From positions 1 to 26,369 of IMG/VR virus record IMGVR_UViG_3300033141_006320: a stretch of 26,369 nt of DNA. One strand, given 5' to 3'. The position numbers were made by a program, and so were the translations under genes. The notes under the pieces are model-generated. The model ran no database searches. It had not been told where the DNA came from and saw only the letters and a program-made list of their open reading frames with translations. Shown here piece after piece: positions 2,895-9,040 of this stretch (positions are counted from its first letter, which is position 1; every line of letters starts with the position of its first letter). Origin of the DNA: a virus.

Positions 2895-3067
2895 AAAATA
2901 GAATTTCCAACGCCCCGGCCATACCACATTGCAATTCTCTCCATTTCCCTTTATCCTCTAAGGCTGGGGTTCTATCCACCTCAGAAAGTTCTCAAGTTTT
3001 CCCATTTTTTACTCAAAATCTAAAAGATTTAGTGGCTCAAATCCTGGTGACATATACAAAAACTTAA
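2891..3067 (+). CDS. Possible 58-residue protein with GTG start (weak)
   Basis: The reading frame stays open from a GTG that overlaps the previous stop (GTGA, 2891-2894) to a TAA at 3065. The product is rich in Ser, Pro, Phe and His and matches nothing I know. The only ribosome-site candidate is the weak TTGAG upstream. It contains a 15-base palindrome, AAATCT-AAA-AGATTT (3016-3030), which could equally be an operator in a non-coding gap. I rate coding and non-coding about equal; otherwise 2895-3086 holds no gene. Confidence 0.3.
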   Translation: MKNRISNAPAIPHCNSLHFPLSSKAGVLSTSESSQVFPFFTQNLKDLVAQILVTYTKT

Positions 3068-3086: not shown

Positions 3087-3269
3087 ATGTTAAGCTTAAC
3101 ATTAATTCAAGAGATTGAGAATGTTGAAGACAATAAGATAATTGACTTTGTTAGAGAGAATTACACGTTTGAAGACCTTTTAAATCGATGCAGAGAAGCA
3201 ATAATTAGCGAGTTTCGCAGAGATTACGAAAATTATAAAACCGAAAGAGAAATAATACTGGAGTGGTAA
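3087..3269 (+). CDS. Small acidic helical protein upstream of the replication initiator
   Basis: A 60-residue acidic protein with strong ribosome site AAGGGAGGG. It is predicted to be all-helical (LIQEIENVEDNKIIDFVREN, then EDLLNRCREAIISEF). Its stop overlaps the initiator's ATG by one base (TAATG, 3267-3271), so the two are co-translated. It could be a partner of the initiator or a helicase-loading helper by position, but no family is recognised. Confidence 0.65.
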   Translation: MLSLTLIQEIENVEDNKIIDFVRENYTFEDLLNRCREAIISEFRRDYENYKTEREIILEW

Positions 3270-4168
3270 TGAAGTGGTTTAAACACATGACAAACTCACA
3301 TAATGATGAGATTCTCTCTGAACTGATTGATGAATTTGGTCCGGCTGGTTATGGTGTCTGGTGGATTATTCTTGAAGTCATAGCAACTCACATGGATGAC
3401 ACAGATAGGACTTCAGCAAAGTATTCAATCAAAAAATGGTCAAATTTTTGCGGAATTTCGCCAAAAAAATTTCAAAAAATTGTAGAATTTCTGAAAAATC
3501 GTGGCAGAATTTTGGTAAAAAAAGAAGAAAATTATTTGATTTTAGACGTTCCAAATTTATTAAAATATCGTGATGACTATTCGAGAAAAAGAAAAAAATC
3601 TACGGACAAAGTCCGTACAAACTCCGGACAAACTCCTGACAAAGTCCAGAAAAAATCCGTAGAATGTCCGGCCCAAGAAGAAGAAGTAGATAAAGATATA
3701 GATATATATAAGGCTGGCGGGCCTAATAATAATGTTATACACATATATAGAGTGTATAAAGACAAAAATCATGCCAGCCAGCCAGCCGAATATATAAATT
3801 TTGATAAAAGACCATCTGATGGACTGCTTAACTGGTTTAAACAAAAATTTCTTACAGAGTTTCACATGGAGCTTCCAAATCGTGCTGTAGATATTCTCAG
3901 TAGTATGCTTGCGAGGGATTCTGATATGATAATTCGGGAATATGGTAACTATAAGATATTTCTGACTGTTGCACTAAAAAGAATGCATGACATTGCGTCC
4001 CGAAAAAGGATTCCTGATCCTGATCGTTTTTTGCTGGCAGGATTGTTTGGTAAGCAAAGGTACCTCTGGGAGATGACTCCGGAGGAAGAAGAAAAGGGAA
4101 GTTATGTAAAGCCTTTACTTCAGGAATGGGATAGGGTCGTAAGTGAGAAAATTGAAAGTAACGTATGA
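3269..4168 (+). CDS. Phage replication initiator-like protein (Lin1244/Lin1753-type N-terminal domain)
   Basis: A 299-residue protein. The ATG at 3269 is preferred over an in-frame GTG at 3263 because GGAG (3260-3263) sits five bases upstream of it. Residues 1-110 (MKWFKHMTNSHNDEILSELI, EFGPAGYGVWWIILEVIA) match the DNA-binding domain called Lin1244/Lin1753 or DUF4373, found in phage replisome organisers and related to DnaD-type proteins. A charged, low-complexity linker (about 112-195) joins it to a helical C-terminal domain (about 200-285). This layout is like lambda O, whose gene contains the origin. The linker-coding DNA here holds 11-bp iterons and a DnaA-box pair. The role in starting phage DNA replication is a family-level inference. 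Confidence 0.7.
   Translation: MKWFKHMTNSHNDEILSELIDEFGPAGYGVWWIILEVIATHMDDTDRTSAKYSIKKWSNFCGISPKKFQKIVEFLKNRGRILVKKEENYLILDVPNLLKYRDDYSRKRKKSTDKVRTNSGQTPDKVQKKSVECPAQEEEVDKDIDIYKAGGPNNNVIHIYRVYKDKNHASQPAEYINFDKRPSDGLLNWFKQKFLTEFHMELPNRAVDILSSMLARDSDMIIREYGNYKIFLTVALKRMHDIASRKRIPDPDRFLLAGLFGKQRYLWEMTPEEEEKGSYVKPLLQEWDRVVSEKIESNV
3606..3671 (+). repeat. Six tandem 11-bp iterons inside the initiator gene
   Basis: Contiguous units, all 11 bp: ACAAAGTCCGT, ACAAACTCCGG, ACAAACTCCTG, ACAAAGTCCAG, then the diverged AAAAAATCCGT and AGAATGTCCGG. The consensus is ACAAASTCCGG. The period of 11 is not a multiple of three, so the repetition is kept at the DNA level and not for the protein. One period is close to one helical turn, so a protein could bind each unit on the same face. 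The best reading is binding sites for the initiator that the gene itself encodes. Confidence 0.75.
3684..3787. other. Candidate replication origin unwinding region with DnaA-box pair
   Basis: Right after the iterons the sequence becomes very AT-rich (3687-3711 and 3723-3770). It holds TTATACACA (3735-3743), which matches the DnaA-box consensus TTATNCACA. An inverted partner, GTGTATAA (3752-3759), makes a perfect 8-bp inverted repeat around a 9-base spacer. GC-rich inverted arms, GGCTGGC (3712-3718) and GCCAGCC (3773-3779, repeated in register to 3787), flank this block. Iterons, an AT-rich melting zone and DnaA sites in the initiator gene are the known parts of theta-type phage origins. The assignment is inference. 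Confidence 0.6.
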
Positions 4169-4388: not shown

Positions 4389-5069
4389 ATGACCAAGGAA
4401 GAATTAATTCGTCAGGTTATTCGTTTAGGTCAGCGTGAAGGATGGACGTATGATGATACGGCGGATTTTATTAGACAAGTCAGGAAAGGATTGAGGTTGA
4501 AGCCTCCAAAGAGGTCCCGGAGATTACCGGATATCATGACGGAAAGCGAAGAAAAGAAATTTTTCAGTACTCTTGAAAAATATTACTCCTGGGAGAAAGT
4601 ATTGTTTTTTACTTTGCTGCGATATACCGGTCTGCGTGTTGCCGAGGCATGCAGGTTGCGGAAAAGGGACATAGATTTTGAGCGGCTTATTATTCGTGTT
4701 GAGAAAGGGAAAGGCGATAAAGATAGATACGTTCCTTTTCCGGAGAGAATGAGTAAAGATCTGCGTCATATTTTCGAGCTGTATCCAAAGCATGATTATG
4801 TTTTTGTGAATCGCAATACTGGTCAACCATACACACCAAGGAGATTTCAGCAGATCGCTGCGGATGTATGCAAGAAAGCGAAGATCCGGGATATACGCAT
4901 TACTCCCCACACGTTTCGACATGCGCTCGCCACTGAACTCCTAAACAGAGGTTTGGACATCCGCATAGTCCAGGAAATCCTTGGTCATGAATCGATCATG
5001 ACCACGGAAGTTTATACACACATTGCTATTGAGAAAATCCAGGAAGAGTATCAAAGGGTGATGGCGTGA
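4389..5069 (+). CDS. Short tyrosine recombinase (integrase/Xer-type)
   Basis: A 226-residue tyrosine recombinase with all active-site residues: R83 (TGLRVAEAC), K107 or K109 (VEKGKGDKDRY), H174 and R177 (HTFRH), H200 (LGH) and the nucleophile Y209 (TTEVYTHI). The catalytic domain fills residues 46-226, so the N-terminal core-binding domain is reduced to about 45 residues, shorter than in usual phage integrases (300-400 residues). It starts after GAGGGGGGAAT and ends overlapping the next gene by four bases. It may resolve dimers, invert DNA or act as one of two integrases; a second, full-length recombinase lies at 6163. Confidence 0.9.
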   Translation: MTKEELIRQVIRLGQREGWTYDDTADFIRQVRKGLRLKPPKRSRRLPDIMTESEEKKFFSTLEKYYSWEKVLFFTLLRYTGLRVAEACRLRKRDIDFERLIIRVEKGKGDKDRYVPFPERMSKDLRHIFELYPKHDYVFVNRNTGQPYTPRRFQQIAADVCKKAKIRDIRITPHTFRHALATELLNRGLDIRIVQEILGHESIMTTEVYTHIAIEKIQEEYQRVMA

Positions 5070-5392
5070 GTAAAGAATTGTACTACAAAGCAATCTGTCC
5101 TAAGTGTCATTGGTCTTTAACTGTTGGCCATTTAAGAGACTTAGAGACACCTATTAAAGAGCATTTTGAAATTTGCGATGCTGATAACATGATAATCTAT
5201 ATAGAGGCTGGTAGTTCTGGTGGTTCTATCCTTCAAGAAGGGGATGTAGTTGTTGTGAAAATGGACGGTGAAGAATTTGAGGCTGTTATTGAAAGTTTCA
5301 ACGATGATGACAGTATAACTGTTAAGTCTGAGCTGACAGGCAGAAGGTATAGAGTTAGCAAGGATTCTATAAAGGGAGCACAAGATGAGTAG
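5066..5392 (+). CDS. Small zinc-knuckle protein with SH3/Tudor-like C-terminus
   Basis: A 108-residue protein with a GTG start overlapping the recombinase stop (GTGA). Residues 11-14 (CPKC) with H33 and C37 (EHFEICDAD) could bind zinc. Residues 58-105 (QEGDVVVVKMDGEEFEAVIE, then TVKSELTGRRYRV) look like a small five-stranded barrel of the SH3/Tudor kind. It is encoded between a tyrosine recombinase and the DUF5131 gene and overlaps the latter by eight bases. It could assist either protein in DNA binding; no function is known. Confidence 0.6.
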   Translation: MSKELYYKAICPKCHWSLTVGHLRDLETPIKEHFEICDADNMIIYIEAGSSGGSILQEGDVVVVKMDGEEFEAVIESFNDDDSITVKSELTGRRYRVSKDSIKGAQDE

Positions 5393-6182
5393 AACAAAGA
5401 TAGACTGGTGTGATTATGCCTGGAATCCAGTTTGGGGATGTTTAAACAACTGTAAATACTGTTATGCAAGAAAAATTGCTAAAAGATTCGCAAGAAAAAT
5501 GGCTGAGCAGCAGTTTGTCGATTATGTTATAGACCCTACCGAAGGAGTTGACATTTATGACATCAAACGGTGGAAAGAAAGTCTGACAGAAAAGGTAAAA
5601 TACTTTCTGCCAGTATGGTTGCCTGCAAATTACGAAAAGAAGTTTCCCTCAAAACCCTCAAAAATCTTCGTTAATTCTATGTCTGATATATATTGGTGGA
5701 AAGATGAATGGCTTAAAGCTGTTTTAGAGAGAATTAGAAAATACCCTCAACACGACTTTCTATTTCTCAGCAAATTTCCTCATCGGTATGATCCAACTGA
5801 ATACAAATATCCATCAAACTGTTGGCTTGGGTTAACAATAGATAAAAAAGTTGCTAATAATATATTGAACATGCAGATATACGGTCTTATGAATTATTTG
5901 ACCGACAATATAAAATTTGTATCGTTCGAACCATTGAATTTTGACCCCGAAATTGTATTTGATTATCTTGATGTAGATTGGATCATCATCGGTGCTCAGA
6001 CAAATCCTTATAAACCACCTGAGCGTAAGTGGATAGAAAAAATTATTGATTTTGCTAAGTCTTTTGGTATACCCGTGTTCACAAAAAATAATCTTATAAG
6101 AGCTTATCCTGATTTGGTTTATAAAGAGTTTCCTGAAGATAGGAAATTGATGATAAAGAAGTATGTACGAGAAAATACTTGA
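5385..6182 (+). CDS. DUF5131 / phage Gp37-Gp68 family protein, radical-SAM-like
   Basis: A 265-residue protein with ribosome site AAGGGAGCAC. The N-terminal motif MSRTKIDWCDYAWNPVWGC is followed by the cysteine cluster C19-x3-C23-x2-C26 (GCLNNCKYCYARK), the iron-sulfur signature of radical SAM enzymes. The later segments FVNSMSDIYWW, HDFLFLSKFPHRY, NCWLGLTID, FVSFEPLN and DWIIIGAQTN match the DUF5131 (Gp37/Gp68) pattern. The family is widespread in phages and mobile elements; its substrate is not established to my knowledge. The TcmP-type partner sometimes found next to it is absent here. The gene ends inside the next recombinase gene (20-base overlap). Confidence 0.85.
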   Translation: MSRTKIDWCDYAWNPVWGCLNNCKYCYARKIAKRFARKMAEQQFVDYVIDPTEGVDIYDIKRWKESLTEKVKYFLPVWLPANYEKKFPSKPSKIFVNSMSDIYWWKDEWLKAVLERIRKYPQHDFLFLSKFPHRYDPTEYKYPSNCWLGLTIDKKVANNILNMQIYGLMNYLTDNIKFVSFEPLNFDPEIVFDYLDVDWIIIGAQTNPYKPPERKWIEKIIDFAKSFGIPVFTKNNLIRAYPDLVYKEFPEDRKLMIKKYVRENT

Positions 6183-7176
6183 TCAGTGGGGGCAGTATCT
6201 ACTGGTAGTTAAAAGTCTTCGAGAGTCCACTATCCGGCAGTACCGGCGGTTTGTGAAATATCTATTTGACTTCACCGGTAAAGATCCCGAGAAGATCACA
6301 CAGCAAGATATCGTTGATTATGTTATTGACCTGAAGCTTAAAAAGGTTGACGTTAACACTCAGGCACTCAGGGCCACGGCGATCCGGAGATTTTTTCAAT
6401 GGTATTCCAGAACGTATAAAATCTCCAACCCTGCTAAAGAATTACAGCCTATTAAGCGAAAATATCCTGAATTCAATATGATCACTCCCGATGATCTGCT
6501 TAGGATTGTAGAGTATTGTTACAAAAAAATGATCCGGGCGAAGAGTGAGAGGAATAGGTTCAGGTACCATAGAGATGCTGCTATGTTTGTTTTCATGGCC
6601 GATACAGGTGTCAGGGTTACGGAGTTGATTCAGCTTAGCATAGGTAATATTCGTGTAGAAGAAAATAAATATTATGTGATAATTCCGCCCGGAAAAGGTA
6701 GAGTTGGGCGTCAGTTCCCGTTTGGTCTTTTAGCGGAGCGGTCCCTTGTGGGAGAAGTATTTTCATCGTACTGGCTTATGCGAACAATCAACATGAAAGC
6801 AAAACCTACTGAGCCATTGTTCCCACAGACATACAACTGGCCCGAGTTGAGATATTACACACATTACAATGCGATAGATAAGAAGTGCAAAAGACTGGGA
6901 AAGATTTTGGGTATCAAGATGAATCCACATTCGTTCCGCCATTTTTACGGAACGTGGTCAATCATTAATGGGATTAATATATACGTGCTGAAGGAGAATA
7001 TGGGACATGCATCCCTGACCAGCACAGAGAAATATATCCACATAGCAGAGCGATTAAAAGATACCACGCTTCAACATTCACCAACGAAGGGATTGAAGTC
7101 TCCTCAGGGATTTAGTGGGTTCACAAAGCTGCAAAGAGAGATAATAAAAAAGGGTTTAAAAGATGTATTTCCTTGA
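6163..7176 (+). CDS. Phage tyrosine recombinase (integrase)
   Basis: A 337-residue, full-length tyrosine recombinase. Residues 5-88 form the SAM-like core-binding domain (LLVVKSLRESTIRQYRRFVK, then ATAIRRFFQWY). The catalytic domain follows with R151 (DTGVRVTEL), K179 (GKGRVGR), H256 and R259 (HSFRH), H282 (MGH) and Y291 (TEKYIHI). All are present, so the enzyme should be active. It starts inside the DUF5131 gene with a modest ribosome site (AAAGAAG). It is the more likely integrase of this phage; the adjacent gap with inverted repeats (7177-7499) is the natural place for its attachment site. Confidence 0.9.
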   Translation: MYEKILDQWGQYLLVVKSLRESTIRQYRRFVKYLFDFTGKDPEKITQQDIVDYVIDLKLKKVDVNTQALRATAIRRFFQWYSRTYKISNPAKELQPIKRKYPEFNMITPDDLLRIVEYCYKKMIRAKSERNRFRYHRDAAMFVFMADTGVRVTELIQLSIGNIRVEENKYYVIIPPGKGRVGRQFPFGLLAERSLVGEVFSSYWLMRTINMKAKPTEPLFPQTYNWPELRYYTHYNAIDKKCKRLGKILGIKMNPHSFRHFYGTWSIINGINIYVLKENMGHASLTSTEKYIHIAERLKDTTLQHSPTKGLKSPQGFSGFTKLQREIIKKGLKDVFP

Positions 7177-8001: not shown

Positions 8002-8079
8002 CCATCTTTATGCATATTCGCAAATATCGCCATCTTTATTCAAATTCGCCATCTTTATGCATATTCGCAAATATCGCCA
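8002..8079. repeat. 31-bp direct repeats with palindromic core; candidate operators
   Basis: Two perfect 31-bp copies at 8002-8032 and 8049-8079, starting CCATCTTTATGCATATTCGC, lie 47 bp apart start to start. A partial third copy (about 8030-8050, CCATCTTTATTCAAATTCGC) lies between them. Inside each full copy is ATATTCGCAAATAT, an imperfect palindrome (ATATT-N4-AATAT). The array ends seven bases before the -35 box of the rightward promoter and lies upstream of the leftward gene, so a bound protein could control both directions. Confidence 0.7.
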
Positions 8080-8125: not shown

Positions 8126-9040
8126 ATGGAGAAGAATTCGAATAAACCGACATACTCCTATTTTTACTGCAGAGCTTGTCAGATACCGTTAAAGCTGACA
8201 GAGGACGAACTTATATTTGACAAGAATGGCAAGCCGGTGGTTCTCTGTCCAGGATGTAATAAGCCGATGGTGGAAACCACTTGGCGGGTGATGAATGCCG
8301 TCAAAGGTTTCAAAAAAGCTACCGGTCCCAAGACGGAAGAAGGCAAAAAGAAGGTAGCTAAAAATCTGGATGGCCACCGCGGGATATATACGGACCGGCA
8401 GACCTGCAACAACTGGAAAACTGGTAGGTACGCTAAAGCAAATCGTATTCTCGCTCCTGCTATTGCCGGGCGTTTTGAAGAATGTAACGATTGTGAATTG
8501 TATAACGATTGCAAGGAGAAAAAAATCAAGTGGTGTCCGGTTCAGATTCAACCGCTCCTTCGCTTTTTGCAGGCACATAAAGAAAAGGATCCATCTCAGT
8601 TGCAGGAGCTTGTGGGACTTTCACATGCGAGGTTGTATAGCATTTTCCAGATGGGGCTAAAAGAAGTTTTTGAACGTGGTGCTGTGGTAGATGATGTAAA
8701 AATACTTCATAGCAATAAAGACAAACAGGTTTTACAAATAACTAAAAAATCGCATCCTTTTATTCGGACCGCTCTGGACATTCTGGAGACCATAGGATTT
8801 ACGGCAGATCAGCAGAATATGACACCAGCTAAGCAGGACGAACAGGATACACTTAAAGGGTTTCTGGATATGGAGACTGACAAAAACAAATCTATTTCCG
8901 AGGTGGTAAACGATATCAAAGCGATGGCTGAGGACATGAAGCAAGCTATACAAAAAGCAGCGAAATTGCGCGCTCAGGATGATGCTTTGAGAGAGTATGA
9001 AAACGAGAAGAACCTGGAAAGGGATGATGAGGCGGAATAA
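8126..9040 (+). CDS. Zinc-ribbon protein, putative terminase small subunit
   Basis: A 304-residue protein. A zinc ribbon is formed by C15/C18 and C41/C44 (CRAC, CPGC). Residues 66-80 (TGPKTEEGKKKVAKN) carry a motif common in phage packaging-associated proteins. A second cysteine group, C120, C123, C129 and C137 (ECNDCELYNDC), follows. The C-terminal part (HPFIRTALDILETIGFTADQ, then a long helix) resembles terminase small subunits of the P27 kind. Together with its place directly before the large terminase, this supports a DNA-recognition role in packaging. The ATG has no ribosome site and lies next to the promoter, so the transcript may be nearly leaderless. Confidence 0.6.
   Translation: MEKNSNKPTYSYFYCRACQIPLKLTEDELIFDKNGKPVVLCPGCNKPMVETTWRVMNAVKGFKKATGPKTEEGKKKVAKNLDGHRGIYTDRQTCNNWKTGRYAKANRILAPAIAGRFEECNDCELYNDCKEKKIKWCPVQIQPLLRFLQAHKEKDPSQLQELVGLSHARLYSIFQMGLKEVFERGAVVDDVKILHSNKDKQVLQITKKSHPFIRTALDILETIGFTADQQNMTPAKQDEQDTLKGFLDMETDKNKSISEVVNDIKAMAEDMKQAIQKAAKLRAQDDALREYENEKNLERDDEAE

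Follow-up and report, generated by a model that had tools for sequence, protein, structure and literature searches.

A putative replication origin of 11-bp iterons within a Lin1244-type initiator gene of a phage

The window analysed here, a 26,369-base linear virus record that is a linear fragment, contains an initiator gene with an array of seven 11-nt units, and we conclude that the array is very probably a phage replication origin located inside the gene of its own initiator and bound by the encoded protein. The argument draws on an 11-nt signal found across the family, a unit sequence that changes with the clade, natural swaps among Escherichia coli prophages, and the predicted winged-helix fold of the N-terminal domain. 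A first-pass annotation had proposed an in-gene iteron origin read by the N-terminal domain, and this core of the proposal stands; the DnaA-box pair and GC-rich arms that accompanied it do not, and neither is needed for the origin reading. As the record is a linear fragment, there may be another origin elsewhere.

Features of the gene (window coordinates; strand)
3269–4168; plus; initiator gene with a Lin1244_N (PF14297; DUF4373) N-terminal domain, from Pfam, PHROG and the conserved start
3269–3580; plus; part coding for the predicted winged-helix DNA-binding domain, from an AlphaFold2 model and structural matches
3597–3673; plus; iteron array of seven 11-nt units (AAASTCCGGAC), from direct reading and from relatives with conserved 11-nt arrays in the corresponding position
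3597 (start); unit 1, AATCTACGGAC, weaker than the middle units
3608 (start); unit 2, AAAGTCCGTAC
3619 (start); unit 3, AAACTCCGGAC
3630 (start); unit 4, AAACTCCTGAC
3641 (start); unit 5, AAAGTCCAGAA
3652 (start); unit 6, AAAATCCGTAG
3663 (start); unit 7, AATGTCCGGCC, weaker than the middle units
3674–3711; plus; purine-rich (AGANNN)n tract that may serve as an unwinding element, 79% A+T; a tract is present in relatives
3712–3779; no strand; inverted repeat with arms GGCTGGC (3712–3718) and GCCAGCC (3773–3779), not conserved
3719–3772; no strand; A+T-rich zone, 74% A+T, holding the DnaA-box-like pair
3735–3743; plus; DnaA box TTATACACA, perfect
3751–3759; minus; inverted partner TTATACACT, one mismatch off the DnaA-box consensus
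3797–4165; plus; C-terminal domain, entirely helical in a low-confidence model; no homologue found

The initiator gene and its relatives

The Lin1244/DUF4373-type assignment made in the first-pass annotation is confirmed by a Pfam Lin1244_N match of 27.2 bits (curated cut-off 25) and by relatives up to 59–62% identical, and the gene also matches phrog_186 (DnaD-like helicase loader) and phrog_2562 (replication initiation). Lin1244_N is the only Pfam domain matched; the RepA_N domain was not found in the protein, nor was any Pfam or PHROG match of the lambda O type (Phage_rep_O). Because the relatives begin MKWFKH, translation probably starts at the ATG at 3269, with the GTG at 3263 also possible. 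The N-terminal domain is modelled by AlphaFold2 as a winged helix (pLDDT 81) with a recognition helix at residues 65–77 and wing strands at residues 82–86 and 89–93. Its best structural matches are 4pql (Z 9.6), 4pt7 (Z 9.3) and 5kbj (Z 8.7), which we take to be the N-terminal domains of RepA_N-type plasmid initiators, their titles in the search tool naming an initiator or a Rep–DNA complex; the best initiator matches range from 9.6 to 8.1, a modest margin given that CRP, ORC2 and other winged helices of general type also score Z 8 to 9. Matches in a viral structure library are to Lin1244 proteins and replisome organisers, and a search of solved structures by sequence gave no significant match. 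The single-sequence fold of the C-terminal domain (pLDDT 63.5) is too weak for a structure search, and searches with this domain found no relatives and no family; its role is probably to recruit the host replication machinery.

A single-sequence search with the whole window protein found nothing in viral contigs, genomes or plasmids. For the N-terminal domain, kin were found in phages of Vibrio, Pantoea, Pseudoalteromonas and Escherichia, and an alignment of these kin used as the query recovered 110 loci (80 viral and 30 genomic), up to 59% identical. Annotated or recognisable neighbours of several of these relatives include 'replication protein P', IstB-like, P-loop NTPase and replicative helicase genes, with DnaC-like or DnaB-like neighbours recognised by eye; the window itself shows neither a recognisable helicase loader nor a P-like gene. 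In a Pfam search of whole genomes, Lin1244_N was present in 19 of 148 genomes of a class that includes a Clostridium genome, and was rarer elsewhere. Among structural phage neighbours, the window's portal was found in none of six close relatives; the replication module may therefore pass from one phage to a different one, although an empty answer of this kind is weak.

Elsewhere in the window, a CII-like transcription activator (phrog_101) is encoded at 626–1150, which suggests that this phage, whose portal is of Mu type, has a lysogeny switch like that of lambda. Two different tyrosine-recombinase genes (4389–5069 and 6163–7176) lie either side of a DUF5131 radical-SAM-like gene (5385–6182), and an intergenic tandem repeat of period 28/19 (CCATCTTTATGCATATTCGCAAATATCG) occupies 8002–8079, directly before the gene at 8126.

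Repeats behind the DNA-binding domain

The first-pass annotation described six contiguous 11-bp iterons in the linker; the repeat is real and in strict 11-nt register, with the count revised to seven. Tandem Repeats Finder reports period 11 at 3603–3659 (score 65). The period-11 score of the window gene (28.4) was reached by none of 3000 synonymous-codon permutations and none of 3000 codon-order shuffles, and across periods 7–40 the observed maximum was reached by none in 1000 permutations. Because neither randomisation ever reproduces the score, the repeat is kept as DNA and not as protein, as had been claimed.

The signal is shared by the family. Synonymous permutation of 82 non-redundant Lin1244-type genes shows period 11 to be the dominant DNA signal (mean Z 2.91; 51/82 at P≤0.05 and 37/82 at P≤0.01), with periods 8, 9, 13, 14 and 16 flat, period 22 raised because it is a multiple of 11, and periods 10, 12 and 15 raised because of the purine tract. 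For 308 other ORFs from the same loci the period-11 mean Z is 0.10 (0.3% at P≤0.01), and a raw score of at least 10 is seen in 0/308 of them versus 48% of the family. In the relatives the array starts at a median codon of 111, right behind the DNA-binding domain. Classified by thresholds, 46 of the 82 genes have an 11-nt array, six more a 21/22-nt array, five more repeated cores only, and 25 none; the last include some Bacteroides members, which may not be initiators. Identical cores are spaced by 11 nt 49 times, 10 nt six times, 21 nt nine times, 22 nt seven times and other distances four times, a spacing that, judged from the sequences, is that of sites on one face of the helix. Adjacent units are 79–97% identical at core positions versus 33–52% in the spacer, figures of which only the contrast matters, the core being partly preselected. 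Clostridial Lin1244_N genes (L131, L132, L135–L137, L142 and L145) have 21-nt arrays, equal to two turns, mostly followed by an AAAGT/AAAAG pentamer tract.

An AGA-anchored 5- or 6-nt repeat lies 3' of the 11-nt array in all 43 scorable relatives, the median gap being 11 nt, and precedes the array in none of the 43; in one further gene the two overlap. Since a repeat of 5 nt does not fit whole codons, the tract too is partly kept at the DNA level, and we infer that it is the stretch that opens. These positions bear on the suggestion that the array is an operator through which the encoded protein regulates its own operon, with the origin elsewhere. Winged-helix sites one helical turn apart would suit a repressor too, and in several clades the core of the iteron unit is palindromic, but the array is some 330 nt inside the gene and far from any start, the A+T-rich purine tract is at its 3' side in every scorable gene, the adjoining genes in relatives are helicases and loaders, and the closest folds are those of plasmid initiators with in-gene origins. 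We consider an operator unlikely, and an origin bound by its own initiator to be the better reading of the array.

The DnaA-box pair had been put forward as an origin element, and in a DnaA-dependent origin host DnaA would bind the TTATACACA pair and open the A+T-rich zone, the iterons being minor. The window does contain a perfect and a near-perfect box facing each other in this zone, but boxes are absent at this place in close relatives, the linkers of the family are not clearly enriched (4 per 18.7 kb versus 5 per 47 kb in the remainder of the genes), and the six matches in the window (3.45 expected; as many in 14/100 shuffles) are near chance. The pair, not being conserved in relatives, was rejected as a core element, and an origin of this type is very improbable. 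The GC-rich arms are present as described, but close relatives are without them, and hairpins downstream of the tract in relatives are not in excess over shuffles (6.7% of genes at P≤0.05, the chance rate). Such arms or hairpins were considered as a third conserved element and rejected, being striking in L014, L029 and L105 but occurring family-wide at the rate of chance. In L015 there is a strong hairpin (ATACAATTACCTGACGGTAATTGTAT) directly 3' of the purine tract, at about codons 143–153 of the gene at 3001, and hairpins resembling it are present in L014 and L029, with no family-wide excess. The cumulative GC-skew change proposed as a check is missing; no switch was found at the array, and the skew is positive along nearly the whole window.

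Units, DNA-binding domains and their exchange

The core of the unit differs by clade (TCCGGAC, TCATGAC, TCCCGAC and others), and the units of the family include TCCGGACAAAC, TCATGACTCAA and TCCCGACAAAG, as well as unrelated ones such as CAGTTCCTTTC or GCAAAAACAGA. Mapped on a tree of the N-terminal domains, the core class requires 28 changes versus 43.2 in shuffles, with 0/200 shuffles as low, although such clustering is expected from descent alone.

Prophages of E. coli provide a second comparison. A prophage gene resembling the initiator of phage MagusPhagus (L006) is present in 34 of 5,426 E. coli genomes, and seven of these matches begin only at nt 496–532 of the gene, past the iterons and the tract. 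In five of the seven late-starting matches, together with seven full-length variants, one near-identical C-terminal half follows three different N-terminal domains, and each of these comes with iterons of its own: a Lin1244_N domain of the L006 type with 11-nt GGTCATGA units, a diverged Lin1244_N domain (L155) with 11-nt AACCATG units, and an HTH_36 domain (PF13730) with 22/23-nt GGGTAGTGTCAGAGAGACACC units. The HTH_36 initiators (L151–L154 and L161) have a C-terminal domain near-identical to that of the Lin1244 prophage initiators and share the in-gene array behind the DNA-binding domain, but differ in the length of the units and in their unrelated N-terminal domain. In these genes the iterons are coupled to the DNA-binding domain rather than to the C-terminal half, and the covariation of iterons and N-terminal domain that had been offered as a check is thus borne out by both the swaps and the tree clustering. 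No recognition-helix residues that set the core (TCATGA in L006 versus CCATGG in L155) were pinned down. The 22/23-nt iterons of L151–L154 and L161 are palindromic, and the L152 gene is split into two annotated CDS.

Among close E. coli variants the AGA tract changes in length by 6-nt steps and the number of iterons is constant. The former would suit repeats that arose merely through slippage during replication, in a protein linker under no constraint, as would the variable and probably disordered nature of the linker, but slippage does not account for a constant iteron number beside a tract of changing length, for many unrelated units that are all exactly 11 nt, for cores that are kept while the spacers between units diverge, or for the lack of such arrays in any of the 308 other ORFs. 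We regard this explanation as extremely unlikely.

About ten relatives have an 11-nt array that falls inside the coding part of the DNA-binding domain itself, where the recognition helix ends and in the wing. These (L028, L032, L038, L042, L050, L052, L096, L099, L100 and perhaps L029) were picked after seeing the data, and their array scores are above those of all 308 background ORFs. The units (L028, 3214–3297; L038, 3259–3306; L042, 3220–3282; L096, 3265–3324; L099, 3274–3366) are unlike those of the linker array; L028, L029, L096 and L099 have a clear second array, of another unit, in the linker, and in L052 the linker contains two weak units at most. A two-level origin code for Lin1244 is a speculative and rather doubtful proposal, in which an 11-bp or 21–22-bp helical-turn array would nucleate a one-sided assembly of the initiator on double-stranded DNA, the downstream (AGANN)n or (AGANNN)n tract would be captured single-stranded, and, where the array lies in the wing codons, the binding site would be the DNA of its own reader, the two being mutually constrained.

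Known in-gene origins and a possible mechanism

The plan of an origin within an initiator gene is already known from lambda O, SPP1 gene 38 and pSK41 rep. In pSK41 the N-terminal domain of Rep binds four Rep boxes that lie mid-gene in rep, the linker encoded by the origin can be deleted from Rep, and the C-terminal domain is host-specific; pPR9 is a module-swapped variant with a phage-like HTH_36 N-terminal domain (PMC5703833). The RepA_N/pSK41 system, which gives the best structural match of the window domain, resembles the window in its winged-helix N-terminal domain and mid-gene repeats, and differs in being a plasmid with four Rep boxes, whereas the window is from a phage with seven 11-bp units.

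Lambda has four 19-bp iterons (PMC3985674). The first-pass annotation ascribed the lambda O/ori plan to the window, and the layout does agree, in that the initiator gene contains the origin, A+T-rich DNA comes after the iterons and, in relatives, a helicase loader lies downstream; however, the closest fold is RepA_N, the units are 11 nt and not the 18–19 bp of lambda iterons, and the window is without a P-like gene. As to an inverted repeat beyond the A+T-rich part, as in lambda, the window has the arms, and hairpins in relatives are not in excess. The replisome organisers of SPP1 (gene 38) and 80alpha (ORF20) also have the origin in the initiator gene, and G38P and lambda O are treated as unrelated (PMC5499656); the window is likened to them by layout.

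We propose that the encoded protein would bind the 11-bp units through its N-terminal winged helix and, because these units are one helical turn apart, that bound subunits would stack on one face of the DNA in an ordered complex similar to the lambda O-some. Such a complex would strain and open the adjoining purine-rich, A+T-rich tract downstream, and the C-terminal domain would then recruit a replicative helicase or primase, either that of the host or, in relatives, with the aid of a phage loader or helicase from an adjoining gene. DNA-binding domain, iterons and tract would be inherited and exchanged as one cassette.

The Lin1244 family as an origin carrier and the helical-turn array both appear to be undescribed; in the open-access literature searched, we found nothing tying Lin1244/DUF4373 to phage replication and no 11-bp in-gene array. 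Phages and prophages of hosts that include Proteobacteria and Clostridia carry genes of the DUF4373/Lin1244 type, and a readable in-gene origin would give the family a function and make origins locatable from sequence alone. The matched pairs of domain and site, with their natural swaps, would offer a route to how winged helices choose their DNA and how phages exchange replication specificity.
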